36,144 nucleotides of DNA from positions 1 to 36,144 of the forward strand of contig JAJECY010000001.1 in assembly GCA_022821775.1 (NCBI GenBank), given 5' to 3'. Every line of letters starts with the position of its first letter. The stretch's first letter is position 1. This document shows positions 7,412 through 29,242 of the stretch, in pieces. A model generated the notes under the pieces. The model had not been told where the DNA came from, ran no database searches, and saw only the letters and a list, made by a program, of their open reading frames with translations. A program made the translations under genes and the position numbers. This DNA comes from Acidobacteriota bacterium. GTDB lineage: Bacteria; Acidobacteriota; Terriglobia; Versatilivoradales; Versatilivoraceae.

Positions 7412-8301
7412 ACCTCGCCGGTCGGTGATACCGCCACGTCGTGGGCCCAGTAGAACTGTCCGTCGTACCTTCCGAAGGAGCCCCACAGATCCAGCAACTT
7501 GCCCTCGGGACTGAACTTCAGGATCCGCTCCTTCTTGTCCCGATGGACCAGGTCCCCTCCGTCGGCCACGAAGACCGATCCGTCGGCTCCGATGTCCAGG
7601 CCCCAGGGGCGGCGCATGCGGGGACTGCTCCAGTGGCGGAGCAGCCGTCCCTCGCCGTCGAACACCTGGACGCGCTGGTTGCCCCGGTCGGCCACGTAGA
7701 CTTTGCCGTGGCCGTCGACGGCGATGCCGTGAGGCGTGTTCAGTTGTCCCGGGCGGTCGCCCTTGCTTCCCCAGTCCATCAGGAATTTGCCCTCGGAGGA
7801 GAATTTCGCCACCCGGCTGTTCACATAGCCGTCGGCCACGTAAATCTCCCCGCCAGGGGCCACGGCCACGTCGGTGGGCTTGTTGAAGAGCGCGGGTCCC
7901 AGGCCGGGAGTTCCCCGGGTCCCCAGGGTCATCAACAGCTCTCCCCGAGGGCTGAACTTGAAGACCTGGTGGTGGATCACGTCCACCACCCAGACGTTGT
8001 CCCAGGGATCGACCTCCAGGCCGTGGGCCGCCTCGGTGAACCGGCCCTCGCCCCAGGAAGCCAGCAGTTTGCCGGTGGCGCCGTCAAAGCAGAGGATGGG
8101 CGGGTCGGTGCGCTGGAAGATGAAGACGCGGTTTCGTGAATCCACGTCCACGCCGGCCACCCCGGCAAAGGGGGAGCCTTCGGGAGCCAGCGGCCAGCCG
8201 TGGACGACCCGGTATTTTGAGACAGCAAACGGGTCCTGGGCCGACCACAGGGCCGTTCCCGCCAGCACTGCATAAGCGGCTGCCAACCACAGGCGTTGCA
8301 A
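7351..8301 (-). CDS. NHL-repeat protein of the peptidyl-alpha-hydroxyglycine alpha-amidating lyase (PAL) family
   Basis: A 316-residue secreted beta-propeller with an N-terminal signal peptide (LAAAYAVLAGTALWSA). PAL is the second enzyme of peptide C-terminal amidation, cleaving alpha-hydroxyglycine peptides to amide and glyoxylate. Aligned by eye to rat PAL, the three zinc histidines correspond to His93 (AHGLEVD), His191 (TPHGIAV) and His287 (WAHDVAV). The catalytic Tyr corresponds to Tyr159 in ADGYVNSRV and the catalytic Arg to Arg64 in FQRTDPP. The Met two residues before the last His is replaced by Trp. A TTG start at 8301 is chosen because GAGGAG sits 6 nt upstream and it leaves a 10-nt gap from the preceding dehydrogenase; a GTG at 8337 would overlap that gene. 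Whether it truly acts on peptides is unknown; many bacterial relatives are uncharacterised. Confidence 0.82.
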   Translation of the reverse strand: MQRLWLAAAYAVLAGTALWSAQDPFAVSKYRVVHGWPLAPEGSPFAGVAGVDVDSRNRVFIFQRTDPPILCFDGATGKLLASWGEGRFTEAAHGLEVDPWDNVWVVDVIHHQVFKFSPRGELLMTLGTRGTPGLGPALFNKPTDVAVAPGGEIYVADGYVNSRVAKFSSEGKFLMDWGSKGDRPGQLNTPHGIAVDGHGKVYVADRGNQRVQVFDGEGRLLRHWSSPRMRRPWGLDIGADGSVFVADGGDLVHRDKKERILKFSPEGKLLDLWGSFGRYDGQFYWAHDVAVSPTGEVYVCDVLGRRVQKFVAGPSG

Positions 8302-8311
8302 GGAACTCTCC

Positions 8312-9340
8312 TCAGTCCTCCCAGGTGAACAGGACACCCAGCATGGTTTTTTCCCGATGGTAGATCATCTCGTAGGCTTCCACCATCCGGGTGTAGTGGA
8401 AGCGGTGGGTGATCAGCTTTTTGGGTTCCAGCGAGGCCGTCTCCATCAAAAAGAGAACGTGTTCGGCGGCTCGATCGTTGGAGAAGCGGTTTTCCATGGT
8501 GGGCCCGCCGTTTCCGTCCGGATAGAGATATCCCGTCGGTCCCGAAACGGCGTGCAGGGTGATGCCCCGGGTGTAGAACAGGGACATGGACAGCGGATTG
8601 AAGTCCAGGGGAGTTTCTCCCCTCCCCAGCAGGCTGACAATGGACACTCGGCCGTGCAGGCGCACAATCTCGAGGGCGGTGCGGTAGGCGGGCCAGGGAT
8701 TGGCAGTCAGGATCACCAGGTCGATGCCGGCGCCTCCGGTGACGTCGTCCAGCTTGGCCTTCAGGTCCGGGTCGTTGTAGAGGAAGCCGTTGTGAGCTCC
8801 CATGCGCCGGGCCATCTCCAGGCGTGTGGGGCTGTTGCCGATCGCAATCACCCGCCCACCGAACAGCGGCCCCAGGGCCACCGCTCCCAGGCCCAGCACT
8901 CCCAGCCCCACCACGGCCACGTTTTCCCCCGGCTCGAAATGGGCCTTGCGGTAGCAGAGGGAACTGAGCCCGTAGAGGTGGCACCACACCGCGTCCTCGT
9001 CGTCCACGCCCTCGGGAACCTTCACCAGGCTGGCCGACTCGTTGGTGATGTATTCCGACTGGTGAGGCTGCCGGGTCACCACCCGGTCCCCCACCTGGAC
9101 CCGGCGGACCGCACTTCCCACTCCCATCACGATTCCCAGGTTGCTGTCCCCCACCCAGCGGGGATATACCGGGGCTCCGGGGACGTGTTCGGCCCCCTCG
9201 TAGTTGCCTCGGTCGGTCCCGATCTTCAGGGCGCTCACCCGGGTCCGGATCCAGATTTCGTCCGGCTTCAGGTTGCTGGTATCCAGGGGGTGCTCTTCGA
9301 TATGCAGGTCTCTGGGACCGCGAAGCATGGCGATCTTCAT
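8312..9340 (-). CDS. Medium-chain dehydrogenase/reductase (MDR, alcohol-dehydrogenase-like)
   Basis: A 342-residue cytoplasmic NAD(P)-dependent oxidoreductase of the MDR superfamily. A GroES-like N-terminal domain (GDRVVTRQPHQSEYI) is followed by a Rossmann fold with VGLGVLGLGAVALG. The position that carries the catalytic zinc Cys in classical alcohol dehydrogenases reads SALKIGTDRGNYEG, without Cys, and the four-Cys structural zinc lobe is absent, so it is probably zinc-independent. The start at 9340 is set by AGGAG 5 nt before ATG; an upstream in-frame ATG at 9442 would add 34 low-complexity residues and is disfavoured. The next gene, the PAL-like propeller, begins 10 nt after its stop, so the two are probably co-transcribed. 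The substrate is not readable from sequence. Confidence 0.88.
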   Translation of the reverse strand: MKIAMLRGPRDLHIEEHPLDTSNLKPDEIWIRTRVSALKIGTDRGNYEGAEHVPGAPVYPRWVGDSNLGIVMGVGSAVRRVQVGDRVVTRQPHQSEYITNESASLVKVPEGVDDEDAVWCHLYGLSSLCYRKAHFEPGENVAVVGLGVLGLGAVALGPLFGGRVIAIGNSPTRLEMARRMGAHNGFLYNDPDLKAKLDDVTGGAGIDLVILTANPWPAYRTALEIVRLHGRVSIVSLLGRGETPLDFNPLSMSLFYTRGITLHAVSGPTGYLYPDGNGGPTMENRFSNDRAAEHVLFLMETASLEPKKLITHRFHYTRMVEAYEMIYHREKTMLGVLFTWED

Positions 9341-9551
9341 GGCGGCTCCTTTAATTTCTCCGGATGGATCGGGGGCGTCGGCCCCGGCACTGGGGACCGT
9401 CCCTGGCGCGGGCATGGTCCGCGTGCCGCGTAAGTCTATCACGGACGAGGATGGTGGCAGGAGGAGAGCGGCGGCCGGCGCAGGGAGTTCATTCTGTTTG
9501 ATAAGACTTGGCCTTCTGCAAGGTGAATTAACGGGGAGCGGTGTAGTCTCA

Positions 9552-9567
9552 GTTGACGCGGGTCAAC
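9552..9567. promoter_or_regulatory. Possible operator: GTTGAC-4-GTCAAC palindrome
   Basis: A perfect 6-4-6 inverted repeat, GTTGACGCGGGTCAAC, sits about 212 nt upstream of the dehydrogenase start and just downstream of the previous operon's terminator, where the promoter of the minus-strand pair should lie. Both arms contain a TTGAC -35-like element, but no good -10 was found at the right spacing. The regulator is unknown. Confidence 0.3.
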
Positions 9568-9634
9568 AGCGGAAACATCTCCTACAGAGCTTCCTTATCC
9601 AGCCAGCGGTAAAAGGCGAGTTCAATACCGTCCC

Positions 9635-9704
9635 AAAAAAATGACCCTCCTGACTACTCCGTTTCCGGAGAGAGCACCCGTGGCGCTCTTGTCATCAGGA
9701 GGGT
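9635..9704 (-). terminator. Branched intrinsic terminator of the Lol-like operon
   Basis: Read on the minus strand, a 10-bp perfect outer stem (arms 9695-9704 and 9644-9653) encloses two smaller 5-bp hairpins (arms 9685-9689/9671-9675 and 9666-9670/9657-9661). Seven T residues follow (A-run 9635-9641 on the plus strand). It lies about 120 nt after the stop of the outer-membrane protein gene and before the dehydrogenase pair, as expected for a Rho-independent terminator. The three-way shape is unusual for a simple terminator. Confidence 0.65.
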
Positions 9705-9825
9705 ACCTTTACTTGAATGCTACCACGTTCTTGGCTCAACGCCGGAAGATTTCCCCCCATCTTCCCCCCATGCTCCCGTACGTCCTTACCAGCGCCAAGT
9801 CCCTTGTAACTGTCTCTTTCTGACT

Positions 9826-11031
9826 TCAGAAGAAAATGCTCAGCGAGAGGTAGGCAGTAGTGCCCAGGCTGCCGTACTCGGAGGCGGGCGGTCCCTCGGA
9901 GCCCGGGGAGACGTCGCCGAATCCCTTGAATAGGCCGCCGGTGAGGGTGACTTCGTTGCTGGCCGAGTAGGAGAGGCTTGGAGCCAACAGGGAGCTGCGG
10001 TCGTTGAGGTTCGACAACCAGAGAAGCGAGAGGCTCCACAAGGGATGGAGCTGATATTGGGCCTGGGCGGCGGCCTCGTCCCGCCCCAGCACCTGCAGCT
10101 CGCCCCGGGTAAAGGCCTCGGACTCCAGAACCGACGAGGTTTCGCCGGCATTGGCGGCGCCCAGGCCGTCGTGCTGGTACTCGGCCACCAGGTAGAGGTC
10201 CCGGTTGGACAGGGTGAGGCGGCGGTCGATGCCCAGGGTCCCTCTCACCATGGTTTTACCATGTATCCTGCGCAGTGCGGCCTCGCCGCGCAGCGCCAGC
10301 GGGCCCAGTGAGCCGGACACGGCCCCGGCCGCGGCGGGCTCGTCGAAGAGGGCTCCGGCCCAACCCGAGATTTCCCAGTTCTTCCAGGTGGTCAGGCCTC
10401 GCCCCAGTGCGGTGAGCTCCCTGCCGGCGCCCGATCGGGTGGGCCGCACCACAACCTCCACCTGGCTGAGGGGGCCCGGGTGAAATTGAAGCCGGGCTGC
10501 GTCGATTCCTCCGCGGTAGGCACGAAAAGGGTCGGCGGGATTGAAGGGGGAAAAGGGGTCGGCCGGAGTGAGAAAGAGCGTAGTTGCCCAGGAGGCGGTC
10601 TGTCGCCCCAGCGTCAGGTCCAGATTTCCGGTGGGCGCCCAACTCAGGTTGAGGCGATCGAAGCGGTGCTGCCAGCTCACATGGTCTCTTTCCCAAAGGT
10701 TCCACTGGAGGTCCAGCCAGGGCCTGATTTCGGGGACGCCGGCGATCGCAAGGGCGGGGGAGGTCGGCAGCCGGTTCAAGCCGAGGGTGTGCTCGTAGGC
10801 GATTTCCGCCGAGAGAGGTCCCCAGCGAGGCTCGCTCATCAACCGGATGCGGTTGAAGTCGCCGAAGAACCCGCGCCGGGAGGGGGTGGCCCGGCTCCAC
10901 AGCGGGAGGTTGTGATAGTAACCCCGGATCAGGGGCGTCTGGGCCGCTGCCGGTCCCGGGCCGCCTTGGTTTACCCCCATCGTCAGGAGGAATGCCGCGG
11001 AAACTATGATTCGCGCCGGGGCTCTTGCCAT
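9826..11031 (-). CDS. Predicted outer-membrane beta-barrel protein, last gene of the Lol-like operon
   Basis: A 401-residue exported protein that I cannot assign to a named family. It opens with a signal peptide (RIIVSAAFLLTMG, cleavage near PAAAQ-TPLIRG). The mature part alternates polar and hydrophobic residues with many aromatic strand ends, for example NLDLTLGRQTASW, SLSLLWLSNLNDRSS and NEVTLTGGLFKGFGD, and it ends in YLSLSIFF with the terminal Phe typical of barrels inserted by BamA. The ATG at 11031 overlaps the ATPase gene by 28 bases. The open frame continues far upstream in the frame opposite to the ATPase, but that part is only its shadow. Operon position suggests it is the outer-membrane endpoint of the exporter. 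It resembles DUF1302-type barrels in general character only. Confidence 0.82.
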   Translation of the reverse strand: MARAPARIIVSAAFLLTMGVNQGGPGPAAAQTPLIRGYYHNLPLWSRATPSRRGFFGDFNRIRLMSEPRWGPLSAEIAYEHTLGLNRLPTSPALAIAGVPEIRPWLDLQWNLWERDHVSWQHRFDRLNLSWAPTGNLDLTLGRQTASWATTLFLTPADPFSPFNPADPFRAYRGGIDAARLQFHPGPLSQVEVVVRPTRSGAGRELTALGRGLTTWKNWEISGWAGALFDEPAAAGAVSGSLGPLALRGEAALRRIHGKTMVRGTLGIDRRLTLSNRDLYLVAEYQHDGLGAANAGETSSVLESEAFTRGELQVLGRDEAAAQAQYQLHPLWSLSLLWLSNLNDRSSLLAPSLSYSASNEVTLTGGLFKGFGDVSPGSEGPPASEYGSLGTTAYLSLSIFF

Positions 11032-11711
11032 TGGTCGGAGGCTATTTGACCGTCGACCAGATGGATCAGGCGACGGGACCGTTCCATCAGTCGGGAGTCG
11101 TGGGTGGCAAAGAGAAAGGTGGTGCCCAGGTCCCGGTTGAGTTCCTCCATCACCGTCAGCAGGATGTCGCTGGCAGCCGAGTCGAGGTTGGCGGTGGGCT
11201 CGTCCGCCAGGACCAGGGCGGGTTCTCCCACCACCGCCCGGATGACGGCCACGCGCTGCTGCTGGCCCCCCGAAAGCTTGCCGGGACGGCGGTGCTCCAG
11301 CCCCGCCAGTCCGGTGCGCTGGAACAGTTCCCGGACCCGATGCTCTCTTTGGCCGCGTTCCAGGCCGCGCAAGAGCAGCGGGAACTCGGCGTTCTCCAGG
11401 GCCGAGAGGACCGGCAGCAGGTTGTAGGACTGGAAGATGAAGCCCAGCTTCTCCAGGCGCATCCGGGCAAGCTCGCGACTGCTCATCCGGGTCAGTTCCA
11501 GTCCGTCCACCCACACCCTGCCGTCGGTGGGCCGGGTCAATCCGCCGATCAGGTTGAGCAGGGTGGTCTTGCCCGAACCCGAGGGTCCGGCCAGTACGAC
11601 GAACTCTCCTGGCTGGATGGTGAGGGTGACCCCGCGCACGGCCCGCACCTTTTCCGCTTCCTGATGAAAGACCTTCCATACCGCTTCGGTTTGCAGGGCC
11701 GGGTTGCCCAC
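11004..11711 (-). CDS. LolD/MacB-type ABC transporter ATP-binding protein
   Basis: A 235-residue ATPase that should power the two FtsX-type permeases encoded just upstream. It has Walker A GPSGSGKT near residue 42, Q-loop FIFQSYNLLP, signature KLSGGQQQRVAVIRAVV, Walker B LVLADEPTANLD and switch FATHDSRLM. Together with the size and lack of a regulatory domain, this places it in the LolD/MacB/FtsE group of mechanotransmission or extraction transporters. The start is GTG at 11711, with AAGGAG 7 nt upstream. It lies 12 nt after the second permease and overlaps the barrel gene by 28 bases, so the operon is tightly packed. Confidence 0.95.
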   Translation of the reverse strand: MGNPALQTEAVWKVFHQEAEKVRAVRGVTLTIQPGEFVVLAGPSGSGKTTLLNLIGGLTRPTDGRVWVDGLELTRMSSRELARMRLEKLGFIFQSYNLLPVLSALENAEFPLLLRGLERGQREHRVRELFQRTGLAGLEHRRPGKLSGGQQQRVAVIRAVVGEPALVLADEPTANLDSAASDILLTVMEELNRDLGTTFLFATHDSRLMERSRRLIHLVDGQIASDQWQEPRRES

Positions 11712-11723
11712 GATCTCGCTCCT

Positions 11724-13001
11724 TCAGCGCTCGAACTTCATGGTTTCGGCCACGTCGATGCGCATGGCTCTCAGGGCCGGGTAGAGGGAGGCCAGCATGC
11801 CTATGAGGAAAATGAACGACAGCCCCTGAACCATCCGGGCCACCCGAAAACGGGGCACCACCACCGGGTCCATCACCACCCCCGAGAAAGTCCACTCATT
11901 GTCCATCATGGAGGACAGGTCGAGTCCCTCTCCCCAGAGGAACCAGGTGACCGACAGGCCCAGGGCAATGCCGATGGTCCCGCTGAGGACGGTCAGAATC
12001 AAACCCTCCACCAGGACCAGGCTGGCCGATTGGCCGGGAGTCAGACCCAGGGCCTGCAGCACGCCGAACTCCCTGCGCCGGTACATCACCGACATGAGCA
12101 CGGTGTTGACGATTCCCAGGGCGATGATGCTGAAGAGGATCCCTTGAAAGAGGTAGTTGGAGAAGTCGTCGATCTTCACGGCGGCGTCCAGTTCCGGCAG
12201 GGATTCCCGCCAACTCAATGCCAGCAGCGCTTCCGTCCCGTGAGTTTCCGAGAGCCTCTGCTGCAGCGAGCGCCGAGCCTGGGGCACCTGCTGGCTGTTC
12301 TCCAACAGCAGCCCCAGGGAGGTGACATCGCCGCTGCAGCCCAGCCAGGCCCCGGCGGTGGAGAGCGGAATATGCAGGAGCGAGCGGTCCGCCTCGGGAA
12401 TGCCCGTACGAAAGGTCCCTACCACCCGAACCAGTTGGCCTGCGATCTCCCCGCCGGCATCCTGGGCGGTGAGGACAAACTTGGAGCCCAGCCGCAGATC
12501 GAGCGCTTCGAGGAGCCCGATTCCCACATAGGCGGCCAGCCTGTCGCCGGGCCGGAGGTAGCGTCCCTGCTGCAGCTTTTCGTCCAGGAGGGAAAAGGCG
12601 GCCTCGCCGGCGGGCTCGACCCCCAGGATCCGAGCCGGCCTTGCCCCGGCAGCGGAGCTGGCCATGCCGGTGACGGCGAGCCGAGGGGCCACGGCTCGGA
12701 TCTCCCCGGGAATGCCGCCTTGACGCAGGGCTTGCTCCACCGCGGCCCGGGATTCGGCGGGCATTCGGTCCTTCAGGGCGCGGCTGGCCCGGAATCGGGG
12801 CGACAGGATTGAAAGGTGTCCGTCAGCCATGCGCACGGCCGAGTCGATCCATTGCTCGTGGGTTCCATCCCCCAGGATCAGGCTGAATATCAGCAGGGCG
12901 CTGCCCGCAATCATGGAGGCAGCCGTCAGCAGGCTGCGCCGGGCCTGTCGTCGCAGGTTGCGCAGGGCCAATCTGGCGATGACGGTGGTTTTGAACCTCA
13001 T
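11724..13001 (-). CDS. FtsX/LolC-type ABC permease, second of two
   Basis: A 425-residue inner-membrane permease. One N-terminal membrane segment (SLLTAASMIAGSALLIFSLIL) is followed by a large periplasmic MacB-PCD-like domain (about residues 45-270). Three C-terminal segments form the FtsX fold, with the cytoplasmic coupling sequence RRREFGVLQALGLTPGQ and the end ALRAMRIDVAETMKFER. Its ATG overlaps the stop of the first permease as ATGA (12998-13001), indicating coupled translation and a probable heterodimer like LolC/LolE. A longer open frame reaching 13688 is only an extension into the antisense of the first permease and is rejected. Expected role: extraction or export of a lipid, lipoprotein or amphiphile with the LolD-type ATPase. 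Confidence 0.9.
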   Translation of the reverse strand: MRFKTTVIARLALRNLRRQARRSLLTAASMIAGSALLIFSLILGDGTHEQWIDSAVRMADGHLSILSPRFRASRALKDRMPAESRAAVEQALRQGGIPGEIRAVAPRLAVTGMASSAAGARPARILGVEPAGEAAFSLLDEKLQQGRYLRPGDRLAAYVGIGLLEALDLRLGSKFVLTAQDAGGEIAGQLVRVVGTFRTGIPEADRSLLHIPLSTAGAWLGCSGDVTSLGLLLENSQQVPQARRSLQQRLSETHGTEALLALSWRESLPELDAAVKIDDFSNYLFQGILFSIIALGIVNTVLMSVMYRRREFGVLQALGLTPGQSASLVLVEGLILTVLSGTIGIALGLSVTWFLWGEGLDLSSMMDNEWTFSGVVMDPVVVPRFRVARMVQGLSFIFLIGMLASLYPALRAMRIDVAETMKFER

Positions 13002-14257
13002 AGGCCGGAGAGTGTGTCCGCCGGCGGCAGCCATGCGGCTCGGGCGGCGGGGTAGAGACCGGCGGTCACCGCGGTCAGCAGCAGCGCCAGGCCGGTCCAC
13101 AGGGACACGGGAAGGTTGTACTCGACCCTGAGCACGGGACGTATCAGCGCTCCCAGCATGGTGAGATCGCCGTAGATCCAGCTCATGTCGATCGGGGAAT
13201 GGTGCCACCAGGCAATGAGCGGGAAGGTGACGGCCACGCCCAGGACCAGGCTGATCCATCCCAGCGCGGTCGCCTCCGAAACCACCGTGAGCAGTATCTG
13301 ATGGGGCCTGGCTCCCAGAGCCAGCATCACCGAGAACTCCCGCCGTCGCTCGTAAGTGGACATGAGCATGGTATTGGCGACGCCGAAAAGCACTATGGAG
13401 AAGACGATGAGCACCACGATGGAGTACCAGGAATCCATCAACAGGGCGTATTCCAGCATTTCCGGTCGCAGCCCGGTCCAGTCGAGGACCTCCAGTTCCA
13501 CCCCCAGCGGCGCCAGGCCGCCAACCAGCCGTAGTCCGGCTTCGGGGGCCAGCCAGGGATCGGCGGTGGAGAGGGCGATCTCGTGGACCCTCTCCGGATC
13601 GAGAGCCAGCAAACGCTGCAGCGACCGGATCGGGATCAGGGCGAAGGCGCCGTCCAGATCGGCCATGCCGGTGCGGTAGAGGCCGCATACGCGGAAAATG
13701 TCGTTGCCCATGGAGCCGTCGGCCGCGGGAGCCACCAGGATGACTTCATCGCCCACCTGCAATTCGAGCCGGCGGGCCATTTCGGTCCCGATCATCAATT
13801 CCTTGGCTGCCGGGGCGGGAGCCCGCCCTTGCCACAGGGAATTCATGAGGCGGCTGACCCGGGGCTCGCGATCGAGGTCGATGCCCATCAGCATGCCGCC
13901 CCTGGTGGATTGTCCGGAGCTGAGCAGACCCGCTCCGTAAACGCGGGGAGCGGCCGCAACCACGGCAGGGTCTCGGACCACCGTCCGGATTACGGCTTCG
14001 AAGTCGGCTCCGGCACGCCCCCCGATGGTCTCGTAGAGGCTGCGGTCCGGCCTGTAGCGGGGCGAGTGGATCTGTATCTGCCCCGTCATCAGGCCGGTGC
14101 CGTTGTCGATCATCTCCACCTTCAGTCCGTCGGCGAACCCGACCATGAAGATGACGGCAAAGTAGCCGGCCGCCAGGCCCAGGGCCGTGATGAAGGTGCG
14201 TCTCGGGTTGCGTCCGAGATTGCGCCAGCCGATCAGCCACCAGGAAGGAAGGGCCAT
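12998..14257 (-). CDS. FtsX/LolC-type ABC permease, first of two
   Basis: A 419-residue inner-membrane permease with the same plan as its neighbour but clearly different sequence. A first membrane segment near residues 21-42 is followed by a periplasmic domain (about 45-270) and three C-terminal segments. The coupling motif is ERRREFSVMLALGARPHQ. The ATG at 14257 has GAGGTGAG about 5 nt upstream and lies 6 nt after the LolA-like gene. Paired with the second permease through an ATGA overlap, it probably makes a heterodimeric channel-less extractor of the LolCDE/MacB class. No fused ATPase or lipoprotein signal is seen. Confidence 0.92.
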   Translation of the reverse strand: MALPSWWLIGWRNLGRNPRRTFITALGLAAGYFAVIFMVGFADGLKVEMIDNGTGLMTGQIQIHSPRYRPDRSLYETIGGRAGADFEAVIRTVVRDPAVVAAAPRVYGAGLLSSGQSTRGGMLMGIDLDREPRVSRLMNSLWQGRAPAPAAKELMIGTEMARRLELQVGDEVILVAPAADGSMGNDIFRVCGLYRTGMADLDGAFALIPIRSLQRLLALDPERVHEIALSTADPWLAPEAGLRLVGGLAPLGVELEVLDWTGLRPEMLEYALLMDSWYSIVVLIVFSIVLFGVANTMLMSTYERRREFSVMLALGARPHQILLTVVSEATALGWISLVLGVAVTFPLIAWWHHSPIDMSWIYGDLTMLGALIRPVLRVEYNLPVSLWTGLALLLTAVTAGLYPAARAAWLPPADTLSGL

Positions 14258-14263
14258 GACCGC

Positions 14264-15004
14264 TCACCTCCCGCGCCGGAGCGTCCGCAGGGAGAAGAAG
14301 GACTTGTCGATGTCCAGGTCGAACTGCAGCTCGTCGTAGCTCACGCTGGTTCGCTCGCCGGGTTTGTCTTGAGGTTGCATTTCCATGTGGGCCGGAACCA
14401 GGCGGTCTCCCATGCGCCGGAAGTCACTGAAGGTGAGGGTTCGCACGAGTTCGCCCTCCTCGTCGAAGTAGCGCGCTTGCAAGGGCATGAAGTCCCGTTG
14501 ACGGACCCGGTATTCGATCTTTCCCCAGACCACGGCGGCTTCCGGCCTGGGGGTCAGGGTGAATTCCCAGACCTTGACGGATTCACGGGTTCCTTCGAAA
14601 GTGGTTTCTATTTCGTAATCCTCTACCAGGCGGCTCTCCTTGACCAGGTCATCGTTGGTGAAGTGGGATCCCATCCAGGACCCCATCATCATGGAGGCGG
14701 GAATCTTGATGGTGCGATCCACCTTGGGCAGGTAGTTCCAGATATCCCTGGAGGCCTTCAGCGTGCCTGTGCCGGCTTCCTTGGCTGGAGACAGGACCCG
14801 GACCAGGGAGTAGTCGGCGCCCAGGGACCAGACCTCCATGGTCAGGCTCCGTTCCCAGTGACGGGTGATCACCCTCATGGTGGCCACGCCGCGGCTGGAG
14901 GCCCCTAGCAACACGCGGTCCACCCGGTCGATGATCGCCCGAGGCGAATGCCGATCGCTGGCCGCGAGGCCCGTGGAGGTCAGAACCAACACCAGTAGCG
15001 GCAT
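14264..15004 (-). CDS. Outer-membrane lipoprotein-sorting (LolA-like) periplasmic protein
   Basis: A 246-residue protein with a short signal peptide (LLVLVLTSTGLAASD). The mature part fits the LolA-like fold family annotated as outer membrane lipoprotein-sorting protein. The DIWNYLPKVDRTIKIPAS stretch and the MMGSWMGSHFTNDDLVKES motif (about residues 105-135) are hallmarks of this group, which is often found beside lipid or RND-type exporters. It would carry a hydrophobic cargo across the periplasm. It is the first gene of the operon, 6 nt before the first permease. ATG at 15004 is chosen because it directly precedes the signal peptide; no strong ribosome site is visible. A longer frame to 15229 adds 75 residues without character. 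Confidence 0.85.
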   Translation of the reverse strand: MPLLVLVLTSTGLAASDRHSPRAIIDRVDRVLLGASSRGVATMRVITRHWERSLTMEVWSLGADYSLVRVLSPAKEAGTGTLKASRDIWNYLPKVDRTIKIPASMMMGSWMGSHFTNDDLVKESRLVEDYEIETTFEGTRESVKVWEFTLTPRPEAAVVWGKIEYRVRQRDFMPLQARYFDEEGELVRTLTFSDFRRMGDRLVPAHMEMQPQDKPGERTSVSYDELQFDLDIDKSFFSLRTLRRGR

Positions 15005-15222
15005 CCGCAGAGTGTTGAGAACCCGCCTGCCACGCCCTTGGTGTTCGGTTCGTTTCAACCCTATCCTCCCGATTCCCGACCGGCTGCTCGCAACTTGGTT
15101 TGTAGCCTGTCGGAGTCCGGCTCCGGCACTACTGTAACCCTTGATTGGAGAGAGGCGCAACGATTCCCGGCTCCATGATTCCCTGCCCCTCTCCCAACCC
15201 ACAAATCCGTTGCCTGCGGAAT

Positions 15223-15411: not shown

Positions 15412-17817
15412 TCACAGCGCCTGTCGTCGGAGGCGCAGGGCGTTGCCGATGACCGAAAGGGAACTGAACGTCATGGCGGCGGCGGCAATCATGGGGTTCA
15501 GGAACAGGCCGAAGAGCGGATAGAGGAGGCCGGCGGCAACCGGGATGCCCAGCAGATTGTAGACAAAGGCCAGGAACAGGTTCTGGCGAATGTTGCGCAT
15601 GGTCCGACGGCTCAGGCGGAAGGCCCGAACCAGGCCTCCCAGGTCTCCTCCCAGCAGGGTGATGCCGGCGCTCTCGATGGCCACGTCGGTGCCGCCTCCC
15701 ATGGCGATGCCCACTTGCGCCTGGGCGAGCGCGGGGGCGTCATTGATGCCGTCACCGGCCATGGCCACCCGCTTGCCCTCCTCCTGCAGTTGTTTGACGA
15801 TCATTGCTTTTTCGGCGGGATTCACTTCTGCCTTGACCTGGTCGATTCCCAATTCGTACGCGACTCTCTCGGCGGACTTTCGGTGGTCCCCGGTGGCCAT
15901 CAGGATGCGCAGTCCTTCCTGTTGCAACTGGTACAGGGCCTCCTTGGCAGAGCGTTTGACGGGATCTTCCACTCCCAGCCATCCGGCCAATCGGCCGTCG
16001 GCAGCCACCAGCACCACGGCCTGGCCCGACTCCCTCACGCTGTCCCGCTGGTGAGGGGGCGTCTCCGTTTCGATCCCCAGCTCCTCCAGCATTCTTGCGT
16101 TGCCCACCGCCAGGGACCGCCCTAGCACGCTTCCCCGAATCCCTCTCCCTGGAACGGCCTGGAAGTCCTGGACGGGAGCCGGGTCGAGGCCGCGGCTCCT
16201 GGCCGCTTCCAGGATGGCCCCTGCCAGGGGGTGTTCGCTGGCTTGCTCCAGGCCGGCCACCGACGACAACATCTCCTCTTCGCTCCAGCCCGGCAGGGCT
16301 ACCAGTGTCCGCAGCCCGGGTTTGCCCTCGGTGAGAGTTCCCGTCTTGTCCACCACCAGGGTGTCCACGCCGGCCAGGGCTTCCAGGGACGCGGCCTTCT
16401 TTACCAGCACGCCGGAGCCGGCTCCCCGTCCGGTGGCCACCATGATCGACATGGGCGTGGCCAGGCCGAGGGCGCAGGGGCAGGCGATAATCAACACGGC
16501 CACGGCATTGACCAGGCCGTAAGCCATGGCGGGCTGCGGTCCCAGCAGGCTCCAGACCACAAAGGTCAGCAGGGCGGCCAGGAGGACCGCGGGAACAAAG
16601 CGGGCAGAAACCGCGTCGGCGAAGCGCTGGATGGGCGCGCGGGTCCTCTGGGCTTCGGCCACCATCTGAACGATCCGGGCCAAAACGGTGTCCTGCCCCA
16701 CCCGGGTGGCCTGCATGACGAAACTGCCGGTCTGATTCATGGTGCCCCCGGTCACCCGGTTGGCGGGAAGCTTCCGGACCGGCAGGGGCTCACCGGTAAT
16801 CATGGATTCATCCACCGAGCTGGCGCCCTCCAGGACCACGCCGTCCACCGGAATGCGCTCGCCCGGACGAACCCGCAGTCGAGCATCCACCTCGACGAGA
16901 TCCAGCGAGACCTCCTCCTCGGTTCCATCCTCGCCCAACCGGCGTGCGGTCTCGGGAGCCAGCCTCAGAAGCGAGCGGATGGCGCTGCCCGTTCGCTGCC
17001 GGGCCCGAAGCTCCAGCACCTGTCCCAGCAGGACAAGGGTGGTGATGACGGCCGCCGCTTCGAAATAGACGGGAACGGCTCCGTCCGGACCTGTAAAGGC
17101 TTCCGGGAAGCGGGAAGGAGCCAGGATGGCCGCCAGGCTGTAGAGGTAGCTGGTGGCCGTGCCCAGACCGATCAGGGTAAACATGTTGGGGCTTCGGTGG
17201 ACCAGGGAAGACCACCCCCGCTGCAGCAGCGGCCATCCCCCCCAGAGAACCACGGGGGTTGCCAGCAGGCATTGAATCCAGGCCGAGACCTCGACCAGCC
17301 GGTGCGGCAGCAGGGAACCGCCGGCAATCATTTCCGACATGGCCAACAGGAAGATGGGAAGCGTCAGAACCAGGCTGACCCTGAAGCGACTGCTCATGTC
17401 GGACAATTCCGGATTGTCGGGCTCCTCCAGGGAAACCGCTCGGGGTTCGAGGGCCATGCCGCATAGGGAACAGGCTCCGGGTCGATCGGCCAGGACTTCG
17501 GGGTGCATGGGGCAGGTGTAGCTCGCCGGCTGCCGGCCGTGTTCCCCCGCTTCCGGTGTTCCGCACCCGGAGGCCGGGACCGCGGGGGCCTCCGGGCTGC
17601 CCAGGTAACGATCGGGATCGGCCTCGAATCGGACCCGGCAGTGCGAGCGGCAAAAGTAGTAGGTCCGGTCGCCGAACCTGTATGAATCGGCCGCGGTCTC
17701 GGGGTCGACCCACATGCCGCACACCGGGTCCCGCACGGACCCGGGCCGGGGGTGTGAAGGTCCATGGCCGGTTGGCTCATCCTCGTCCGGAAGAATATTG
17801 AATTTGAGAGGATCCAT
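15412..17817 (-). CDS. copA: Copper-translocating P1B-type ATPase with YHS and heavy-metal-binding domains
   Basis: An 801-residue inner-membrane Cu+ exporter. The N-terminus has a YHS metal site (DPVCGM near residue 30 and YYFCRSHC near 55) and a second metal-binding domain (YTCPMHPEV and [10 protein letters not shown], residues 100-125) instead of the usual HMA domain. The core has eight predicted membrane segments, phosphatase-loop TGEP, the transport motif CPC in IIACPCALG, phosphorylation motif DKTGT, ATP-site SEHPLA, and hinge [12 protein letters not shown] in the penultimate segment and the M..SS pattern in MTFSSLS fit Cu+ (P1B-1) selectivity. TGES is TGEP and TGDN reads TGDH, both seen in this branch. 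It stands alone; no chaperone or CueR-like regulator is adjacent. Confidence 0.95.
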
Positions 17818-25677: not shown

Positions 25678-28600
25678 TCAGAGGCCGATGCGCAGGCGAA
25701 TCTGAATGTTGCGGGCGCCACCCAGGCGAAACTGACCGAAGGCCGGGCTGGTGATGTTGGTCGAGCTCGGGCCTCCGCGGTTGGGGTGGTTCAGGATGTT
25801 GCGTATGTAGGCCTCCAACTGGAAGTAGGGCCCACTCTCGCCGTAGCCGAGATGCCAGCGCTTGAAGGCATTGATGTTGAGGTCCCACACGTAGAACCCT
25901 CGCATCATGCCCCGCGGCGCCGTTCCGAAGCGTCCGTTGGGAGGTACGGCGAAGCAGCCGGCGTTCCACTTGAATTCGGTCTCCCCGCCGACATTGGGAT
26001 TGCAGCCGGGCAGCAGGTCGGGACGGCCGCCGGATCTGCCGACGTTGGCGGTGTCCGCACCGGAGAAGGCCGGCGTGAACCGGGTTCCGTTGCGGTCCCT
26101 CCATTCCGGCGCCAGGGTCCAGCCACCGATGATGTTCTGCAGGAACCGGTTTGCGTTGGAGCCGTACTTCTGGTTCTTGCCGAAGGGTAGCGGATAGACG
26201 GCCACGATCCGGGCCTGATAGGGATTGAACCCGTTCTGATGGCCCTTCTCGTTGGAGCGATCGTAGGGATCCTCGATGAACAGACCCACCGTGGAGCCGA
26301 AAAGGCCGCCCTGGATGTCGTTCAGCGTATTGAGCCGGGCAATCCAGCCTCTCAGGTAGAGTCCGCTGGAGAACTGGCGGGTAACTTCAAACTCGAACCC
26401 GTGGTGGCTGGAGTTGCCTCCCAGGTCCAGCAGGCCCACCGTGCTGAATCCGGGGCCGAAGGGAAACTGGTCGTGACGCTCGGCAAAGGGTATGGGGCCG
26501 GGAGCCGGCCGCTGCAGGTCCCGAATAACCGGCCAGTTGGTGCCCTTGGTGCCCACATAGGACGTTCGCATGGCGAAGCCGTGCCCCAGTTCCTGCTCGA
26601 TGGTGAGGTTCCACTGCTGGTCATAAGGCCAGTCGTTCTTGCGCAGATCGGGGTCCATGGCATAGACCAACTGTCGCCCCAAGGTGCCGGTCAGTTGCGG
26701 AAACCCTCGCAGGGTGGTGAGTTCCGCCGCTCCGTCCACGATCTGGTTGGGGCCGAACTCCTCCACCAACTGGTAGGGCCCCCGAACCCGAGCCGCCAGC
26801 AGGCCGGCCCGGTCGATGCCGAACCCGCCCACCGGGAAGCCGGCGGCCTGAGCCGCATGGGTGGCGTAGGGAACCGAGTAGATGCCGTAGCCGGTACGAA
26901 TCACCGTTCCTTCCCGGGGACGGAAAGCGATGCCGATCCGCGGATCCACCAACACGGACTTGAAGTTGATCAGCTTATCGGGATAGCCGGCCTCGCGGGC
27001 AGTGACCACCGGGATGGGATAACCCGGGACCACCTGGCGCAAGGCTTGATCGCTGGGCACCACCACCTGTCGGTTGGCCAGATCGAAGTTGTACCAGCGG
27101 TCGTCCTTTTCATAGGGGGTGCCGTAGTGCTGGAAGCGGACTCCCAGGTTGAGGGTCAGGTCCGGCCGGATCTTCCAGTCGTCCTGAATGAAGAAGCCGA
27201 ACTCCCATTGCCGTGCTTCGGCTCGGGGGGTGATGGCCTCGATCTTGGTGGTGAAAGGCAGGCCCAGCAAGAGGTCGCCGAAGTCGTAGCCGGTGAAATT
27301 CCCGGTAAAATCCCAGCGGCCGAACTCGTTGGTGTTTCGATCCCCCTCCTTGTGGGGAAACTGGTGACGCAGCTCGATGCCGGTCTTGATGAGGTGGCTG
27401 CCTTTCTGGATGGAGATGGTGTCTCGTATCTGCCACACCGCGGCTTCGGTGAAGTCGATCAGCGGCGAAGTGCCCAAGCCGCCCATGAGGTTGGCGGGTC
27501 CCACGTTGAAGGATGCCGAGGAGGCGCCGGATTGCCGCCCCAGGGTCCGAACCACGAAGCGGGGATTGCCGGAGCCGTTGGGCAGTAGCTTCTCGCGGCC
27601 GCCCAGGTCGGATATGCCCAGCAGATCCAGGTACTGGCGGCCCGGAAAGTCGCCGCTTCTCCACACGCTGCGTTGACGGTTCCAGCCGAAGCTGAACTCG
27701 TTGATCACCTGCGGATTGAAGGTGTGGGCATCCTGCAGGGCGAAGGCGCGACGGTTGTCGTCTCCAAACAGACCCTTGCCGTTGATGAAAGGACTGCCTC
27801 CTCCTTCATCGAACACCCAGCGCTCCCACCAGATGGTCGCGGTCACCCGATTGTCTTGGGTGATCTGGTGGTCGAAACGCATATGGGTGGTGTCGCGTTC
27901 ATTGGCGTTGGAGTCGATGAAGTCGAAGTTGTCGTAGAGTCGATCTCTATGGGCCAACGGCAGAATCCCGCGGGAGGGATCCAGCAGGTTGGCGGCCACC
28001 GGGCTCCACCGCTCCCGGGGGATCATGTCGTTGGGGAAGGGCTGGCCGGTGAAGGGATCGATGATGTTGAAGTCCGGGTTCCCTTGGGTCGTCCGCTGGA
28101 ATCGGGCGAATTCGGACAGGTCCCCCTGGCGCATTTTGGTGGTCGGCAGGATCCAGTTCTGACTCAGGAAGTAGTTGACGTTGCTGGAGGGCTGGTAGTT
28201 CCAGTGAAAGAAGGTCTTGTTCCTGCCGTCGTACACGCGGGGGATGTACACCGGTCCGCTGGCCTCGTAGGAGATGCGCCGATTGGGACGGGAGGGCGGC
28301 CTGGGCCGGCCGTTCTGACTCGGTTGCAGCGCATTGAGTCGGGGATGGTTGAGGTGATAGAAGATCTCCCCGTGAAATTTGTTGGTGCCTCCCCGGCCGA
28401 TGGCCATCACCGTGGTTGAGGTGCGGTACTCGGCGGGGGCATTGAAGGAGGTCTGAATCAGTTCCTGGGTGGTCTCGGTATAGTCCCGGCCCGACCCGCC
28501 GTAGGCGTTGGTGGCCAGACCCATGTGCTCGGTGTTGGTATTGTTGGCGTAGCTGCCGTGCACCTGGCTGCGGGGCTCGTTGCCGGGATTGAGGCCGATG

Positions 28601-29121
28601 GTATAAATCAGGGCGGCATTGGTGTTGAAACCCACCATTTCCGTCATGGCCGTGGTCTGCTTGATGGTGGGCGTGTCGGTGTCGATGACGTAGCCCTCTT
28701 CCTCGACGGTGATGGTGTCGGCCACCTCACCCACCTCCAGCGTGATATCGATTCGCCGGGCCTGTCCGGCGTAGACCACCAGGCCGGAGTTGACGAATTT
28801 CTTGAAGCCCGACAGTTCGACTTCCAGGGTGTAGGACCCCGGCGACAGTCCCCTCAGCTCGAAGTCTCCCACCTCGTTGGTCACGGTGCTGTTGCCCAGT
28901 CCGGTGCTTTCCGAGGTCGCGGTCACGTCTGCGCTGACCACGATCGCCCCGGTGGGATCGGTCACTCTTCCCCGAAACCCGCCATACTCCTGGGCGATCG
29001 CCAGGGGCGCCGCCAGAATAAGAGCGGCCAGGGCGGTCAGCACAACCGACACGCCCGTCGGAGTTGACCGACTGATCCGATGGATCAACCGCAAAGCGAT
29101 CCCTTCAGTTCGCGGAATCAT
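25678..29121 (-). CDS. Oar-type TonB-dependent receptor with N-terminal carboxypeptidase regulatory-like domain
   Basis: A 1147-residue outer-membrane protein. A signal peptide ending near LAIAQEY is followed by a carboxypeptidase-regulatory-like Ig domain (about residues 45-135: FRGRVTDPTGAIV, TNEVGDFELRGLSPGSYTLEV). Then come a plug domain (about 150-270) and a long barrel with strands such as GFEFEVTRQFSSGLYLRGW. The C-terminus is RNIQIRLRIGL. Length and order fit the Oar/OmpA-related TonB receptors that are amplified in Acidobacteriota and probably bind large carbohydrates or peptides. The ATG at 29121 is set by GAGGAGG 4 nt upstream; an in-frame extension to 29217 is disfavoured. A strong promoter with overlapping palindrome lies about 120-150 nt upstream. 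Confidence 0.95.
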   Translation of the reverse strand: MIPRTEGIALRLIHRISRSTPTGVSVVLTALAALILAAPLAIAQEYGGFRGRVTDPTGAIVVSADVTATSESTGLGNSTVTNEVGDFELRGLSPGSYTLEVELSGFKKFVNSGLVVYAGQARRIDITLEVGEVADTITVEEEGYVIDTDTPTIKQTTAMTEMVGFNTNAALIYTIGLNPGNEPRSQVHGSYANNTNTEHMGLATNAYGGSGRDYTETTQELIQTSFNAPAEYRTSTTVMAIGRGGTNKFHGEIFYHLNHPRLNALQPSQNGRPRPPSRPNRRISYEASGPVYIPRVYDGRNKTFFHWNYQPSSNVNYFLSQNWILPTTKMRQGDLSEFARFQRTTQGNPDFNIIDPFTGQPFPNDMIPRERWSPVAANLLDPSRGILPLAHRDRLYDNFDFIDSNANERDTTHMRFDHQITQDNRVTATIWWERWVFDEGGGSPFINGKGLFGDDNRRAFALQDAHTFNPQVINEFSFGWNRQRSVWRSGDFPGRQYLDLLGISDLGGREKLLPNGSGNPRFVVRTLGRQSGASSASFNVGPANLMGGLGTSPLIDFTEAAVWQIRDTISIQKGSHLIKTGIELRHQFPHKEGDRNTNEFGRWDFTGNFTGYDFGDLLLGLPFTTKIEAITPRAEARQWEFGFFIQDDWKIRPDLTLNLGVRFQHYGTPYEKDDRWYNFDLANRQVVVPSDQALRQVVPGYPIPVVTAREAGYPDKLINFKSVLVDPRIGIAFRPREGTVIRTGYGIYSVPYATHAAQAAGFPVGGFGIDRAGLLAARVRGPYQLVEEFGPNQIVDGAAELTTLRGFPQLTGTLGRQLVYAMDPDLRKNDWPYDQQWNLTIEQELGHGFAMRTSYVGTKGTNWPVIRDLQRPAPGPIPFAERHDQFPFGPGFSTVGLLDLGGNSSHHGFEFEVTRQFSSGLYLRGWIARLNTLNDIQGGLFGSTVGLFIEDPYDRSNEKGHQNGFNPYQARIVAVYPLPFGKNQKYGSNANRFLQNIIGGWTLAPEWRDRNGTRFTPAFSGADTANVGRSGGRPDLLPGCNPNVGGETEFKWNAGCFAVPPNGRFGTAPRGMMRGFYVWDLNINAFKRWHLGYGESGPYFQLEAYIRNILNHPNRGGPSSTNITSPAFGQFRLGGARNIQIRLRIGL

Positions 29122-29242
29122 CGTTCCTCCTCGCGCAGCCGGCCCTGGGCTGCGGCATGGATGGACCACCACCAGCTTCAGGAAGGACAAGTCACCTCCT
29201 GACGTCAACGGCGGCAATGTTGTGAGTTGGATACTTGAATTG

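Follow-up and report, generated by a model that had tools for sequence, protein, structure and literature searches.

The locus described here raises the question of what a Lol-like set of envelope genes that encodes its own outer-membrane barrel would carry, and in which direction. The window, that is, the whole stretch of 36,144 nucleotides that was analysed, corresponds to contig C87 in a genome of 4.4 Mb from an Acidobacteriota genus that also includes the MAG Candidatus Versatilivorator vitaminiformans (L062). On its minus strand, between positions 9826 and 15058, five genes are tightly packed: a LolA_like periplasmic carrier (14264 to 15058 or 15004, with a TTG or an ATG as start, respectively), two FtsX/MacB-type permeases of a type VII ABC transporter, hereafter FtsX1 (12998 to 14257) and FtsX2 (11724 to 13001), a LolD-type ATPase (11004 to 11711) and an outer-membrane beta-barrel (9826 to 11031). 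The carrier and FtsX1 genes are 6 nt apart, the two permease genes share a 4-nt ATGA overlap, the ATPase gene follows FtsX2 after 12 nt and overlaps the barrel gene by 28 nt, and no extra gene was found within the operon. On the same strand, a terminator-like branched hairpin lies at 9628 to 9705, with an outer stem enclosing two inner hairpins and seven T after it (MFE of -40.8, z of -4.5 against shuffles). Simple promoter and terminator scans of the window gave nothing exceeding chance, and a simple hairpin scan misses a branched structure of this kind. The five genes, their spacing and the single terminator are those that a sequence-only reading of this DNA had proposed. Within the genus, differences are mainly synonymous in all five genes, the barrel gene included. 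Elsewhere in the window, the operon is preceded by a copper-type P-ATPase (15412 to 17817, recognised by inspection), and an outer-membrane receptor of large size with an OMP_b-brl_4 domain lies further along (25681 to 29217); neither has an apparent link to the operon.

The carrier matches the PF17131 (LolA_like) family at 179.4 bits against a curated cut-off of 30 (E = 7e-53), whereas PF03548, the LolA family, gave no match to it. Its relatives in the PDB (3buu, 9tp6 and 3bk5) have the LolA fold, and LolA folds bind acyl chains. The earlier assignment of a LolA-like protein was thus correct, but the start given to it, the ATG at 15004, was not retained: this codon is not shared across the genus, whereas a TTG at 15058, preceded by a GGGAGG-type Shine-Dalgarno sequence about 7 nt upstream, is common to the window and six genus-mates (seven genomes), so that translation probably begins there. 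A signal peptide is present in the carrier.

Both permeases contain MacB_PCD and FtsX domains (PF12704 and PF02687), and these domains, together with the AF2 model and the Foldseek comparison of FtsX1, agree on the type VII arrangement, a four-TM FtsX fold in which TM1 and TM2 are separated by a large periplasmic domain. FtsX1 was modelled as a confident type VII fold (pLDDT 92.3) with LolE and LolC as its top Foldseek matches (TM about 0.68) and MacB next; FtsX2, which was also placed in the permease tree, has LolF, LolE and LolC as relatives. The ATPase (ABC_tran, E = 1.2e-33) finds its best NCBIfam match in LolD, and the two distinct FtsX/LolC-type permeases coupled by ATGA and the LolD-type ATPase that had been claimed are indeed present. 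However, the ATPase reaches 214.1 bits where the LolD cut-off is 307.75, and the permeases score 94.7 and 112.6 bits with the LolCE family against a cut-off of 362.45, below which the genome's own LolC/E falls as well (328.9 bits), though by far less. In the permease tree, a branch with 96% support separates the operon permeases from E. coli LolC and LolE and from the genome's own LolC/E. The region of the LolC Hook, which recruits LolA and is taken here as residues P167-P179, spans 21-22 residues in all 58 operon permeases compared with 26-27 in LolC, LolE and the genome's own LolC/E; judged by sequence, both operon permeases lack the Hook.

A search for housekeeping Lol genes elsewhere in the same genome, which the sequence-only reading had suggested, found a LolC/E gene accompanied by LolD on contig C217 and a canonical PF03548 LolA on contig C276. 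These genes rule out that the operon is the only Lol system of this genome and, because they are separate from it, lipoprotein sorting does not need the operon. Set beside LolCDE-LolA-LolB, the operon shares a type VII ABC built on a pair of FtsX-type permeases (with FtsX1 nearest in fold to LolE/LolC), a LolD-like ATPase and a LolA-fold carrier; it differs in that a barrel replaces the lipoprotein LolB, the carrier belongs to PF17131 and not PF03548, the Hook-less permeases form a clade of their own, and a housekeeping Lol coexists with it. The operon would work like Lol but is a separate type VII lineage and not LolCDE. Folding the carrier together with the permease, as a single read-through polypeptide, was also considered and dropped because the permease N-terminus is cytoplasmic, which makes the fusion topologically false.

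The last gene product has no Pfam, NCBIfam or PDB match at the sequence level. Its AF2 model consists of nearly all strands (mean pLDDT 87.3, pTM 0.85), and Foldseek returned outer-membrane barrels, with the alginate exporter AlgE first, together with Occ/OprD porins (OccAB1). DSSP lists 19 strands, and the model likely represents 18, one of them broken. A signal peptide, recognised by inspection, and a C-terminal Phe, which is found in 51 of 56 complete barrel relatives, complete the features of an outer-membrane protein, as had been predicted for this gene. The best-conserved stretch among the 61 aligned sequences (alignment A2) reads GRQ..SW/G..P.D.F.PF.P.D..REYR.GVDA. The earlier view that the barrel has no recognised family holds for the window protein itself, but not entirely for its relatives, 7 of 61 of which match DUF1302 (PF06980; best E = 4.6e-6), a family with no match in the window barrel. 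Since, in addition, the barrel profile aligns through a WG motif region with the barrel of an MMPL operon in the same genome (hhalign E = 1e-4), we regard the protein as a remote relative of the DUF1302-like group that belongs, by cut-off, to no known family. Plain phmmer had reached the genus only (7 of 101 genomes), which would have made the barrel an orphan gene, a reading rejected once the profile showed wide conservation. In one genus member (L055 in G004, 7600 to 9572), the barrel gene is split across two frames, through either assembly error or decay.

To what extent do the five genes travel together? With the carrier as sole query, we searched the genomes of 84,980 species and read the gene order at the best 80 loci with profiles for the other four genes; the resulting figures describe the nearest clade of carriers (80 of 549 relatives). 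Because the loci were chosen by similarity to the carrier and not to the barrel, the linkage of the two is not a selection effect. Among these best 80 of 549, the barrel was present in 62 of the 64 loci with an ABC gene and a continuing contig, three of the 62 coming from the window's own genus. The order carrier-permease-permease-ATPase-barrel was found at 56 loci, plus one with a frameshifted barrel, while one locus has three permeases and four show a variant order; in this Proteobacterial variant (L094, L102, L125 and L133) the ATPase is second, a single long frame holds both permeases, either fused or side by side, and the barrel comes after. L087 is an ABC locus without the barrel, and L078 has carrier and barrel with no ABC. 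At a gammaproteobacterial locus (L111, 12507 to 15559), a TonB-dependent receptor stands after the ABC gene, in the place of the barrel. Going by record titles, sets with the barrel among the best 80 of 549 carrier relatives cover at least 11 phyla and come from Gemmatimonadota, Acidobacteriota, Thermodesulfobacteriota, Pseudomonadota, Bacteroidota, Rhodothermota, Chlorobiota, Calditrichota, Zixiibacteriota, Poribacteria, Chrysiogenota and Deferribacterota; all five genes, in unchanged order, also occur on a replicon of Vibrio campbellii. Conversely, a search of 396 Acidobacteriota genomes with the barrel profile gave matches at 1e-10 in 80 of them, and FtsX and ABC genes lie directly upstream in all 19 non-self loci examined among the strongest matches. 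The barrel is therefore conserved with the other four genes. The two outcomes that the sequence-only reading had named as refuting it, a soluble or inner-membrane fold for the barrel and a barrel gene that is not conserved with the rest, were thus both looked for and not found.

Within the class, a close carrier occurs only in the genus and in one distant genome (G184), other matches being weak. The window carrier and both permeases group with Gemmatimonadota (64-69% identity), so the genus probably acquired the operon horizontally from that phylum, with moderate support for the exact branch. The only recurrent neighbour is a TetR gene (15 of 65 upstream proteins sampled); among the sampled neighbours we found no recurrent link to biosynthetic or catabolic genes. 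Glycosyltransferase and Kdo-transferase neighbours were discarded as a biosynthetic link, being confined to a few related Gemmatimonadota loci. Since TetR is the sole recurrent partner, regulation of the efflux or stress type is favoured, and with it an inducible function in export or stress rather than the constitutive sorting of lipoproteins. The same genome also holds the MMPL operon mentioned above (C248, 33500 to 38000; L052), with an MMPL/RND pump where the five-gene operon has its ABC transporter, a PF17131 carrier that is also DUF1329-like, and a barrel-like protein of about 500 amino acids with no Pfam match. A third PF17131 copy (C40, 10175 to 10729; L147) lies just downstream of the end of an apparent RND/MMPL-type membrane protein.

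The reading that we favour, with somewhat better than even confidence, is that the operon encodes a self-contained, ATP-driven trans-envelope shuttle for the export of an amphiphile or lipid other than a lipoprotein, both the direction and the class of substrate being our inference. The two permeases and the ATPase would form a heterodimeric ABC transporter that extracts a molecule from the inner membrane and loads it into the greasy cavity of the carrier; the carrier would then cross the periplasm and hand the molecule to the co-encoded barrel which, as receptor in the role of LolB, may insert it into the outer membrane or pass it through. This sequence of extraction, loading, ferrying and hand-over is the simplest model, because those type VII ABC transporters whose function is known act at the periplasmic side, by extraction, efflux or mechanotransmission (PMC12646458), and carrier and barrel belong to one transcription unit. 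Export is supported by the gene order kept in both search directions, the fold likeness to LolE/LolC, the LolA-fold carrier and the outer-membrane barrel; the proposal that the five genes form one unit with a barrel as end-point in place of LolB is likewise supported by fold and by co-occurrence across phyla. By analogy, the recurrence of the carrier and barrel with an MMPL/RND pump, both in this genome and in AmeABCD, would also support export. AmeABCD of Castellaniella defragrans comprises an RND HAE3 pump with DUF1302 and DUF1329 proteins, and its deletion lowers monoterpene tolerance (PMC6394551). There too a LolA-fold periplasmic protein and a DUF1302-type barrel are co-encoded with an inner-membrane energiser, but the pump is an HAE3/MMPL-type RND protein where our operon has an ABC with FtsX permeases, AmeC is an extra periplasmic component, and the barrels are merely remotely similar. 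Against lipid export in particular, the solved barrels nearest to our model, AlgE and Occ, move polar solutes and not lipids, and the want of a recurrent biosynthetic gene, together with the few loci that have no barrel (L087, L111) or no ABC (L078), weighs against the favoured reading as a whole.

The same parts could be read differently. The operon might be a second Lol machine, specialised for some lipoproteins only, e.g. those of the cell surface, in which the barrel would stand in for LolB or act as a surface flippase. The fold of FtsX1, the best score of the ATPase with LolD and the name of PF17131 as a lipoprotein-sorting family would all agree with this, as would Borrelia BBJ23-29, an ABC, LolA-like and Omp85 system for which lipoproteins were considered a possible cargo (PMC13078400). 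BBJ23-29 has a single (homodimeric) permease, an Omp85 barrel and two TPR proteins where our operon has an AlgE/Occ-type barrel and no further gene, and the operon's carrier had no match on Borrelia plasmids at 1e-5. Scores far under the LolCE and LolD cut-offs, the separate clade, the missing Hook in both permeases, the presence of a housekeeping Lol and a patchy, TetR-linked distribution make such a machine rather unlikely. Uptake seems to us less probable still: here the barrel would admit hydrophobic compounds, which the carrier and the ABC would bring to the inner membrane. In Pseudomonas putida, growth on Tween 20 requires DUF1302 and DUF1329 proteins, for which a complex is predicted (PMC10866462); by analogy, this would fit uptake and speak against export, as would the induction of an MMPL/LolA-like protein by C28 alkane (PMC6304351) fit uptake. 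On the other hand, the periplasmic-side activities of characterised type VII ABCs point the other way, and catabolic genes are not recurrently linked among the sampled neighbours. Very improbable, finally, is a dedicated chaperone pathway in which carrier and ABC assemble the barrel, itself the cargo; barrel and carrier do strictly co-occur, even without the ABC in L078, but the signal peptide of the barrel is ordinary and its C-terminus carries an aromatic beta-signal, as expected for BAM, and acyl chains are what LolA folds bind.

We return, then, to export of an amphiphile or lipid. The general logic of an inner-membrane engine linked by a LolA-fold carrier to a barrel in the outer membrane already has published parallels, of which AmeABCD and Borrelia BBJ23-29 are the closest; for the ABC-LolA_like-barrel operon itself we found no description in the openly accessible literature, a weak negative given that most subscription papers were outside this scope. 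We would give about even chances to the view that it represents a widespread, undescribed mode of ABC-driven export to a barrel of its own, in which a non-lipoprotein lipid or amphiphile is moved and the carrier docks in a manner unlike that of the LolC Hook. Apart from LPS and lipoproteins, little is understood of how lipids travel to the outer membrane, and the operon is a compact and complete candidate for such a route, conserved from Gemmatimonadota to Vibrio and present in culturable, non-pathogenic bacteria such as Mangrovibacterium marinum DSM 28823, Pontibacter anaerobius and Reinekea sp. It also shows that the pairing of a LolA-fold carrier with a dedicated barrel has been combined with an ABC as well as with an RND engine, which are unrelated to each other.
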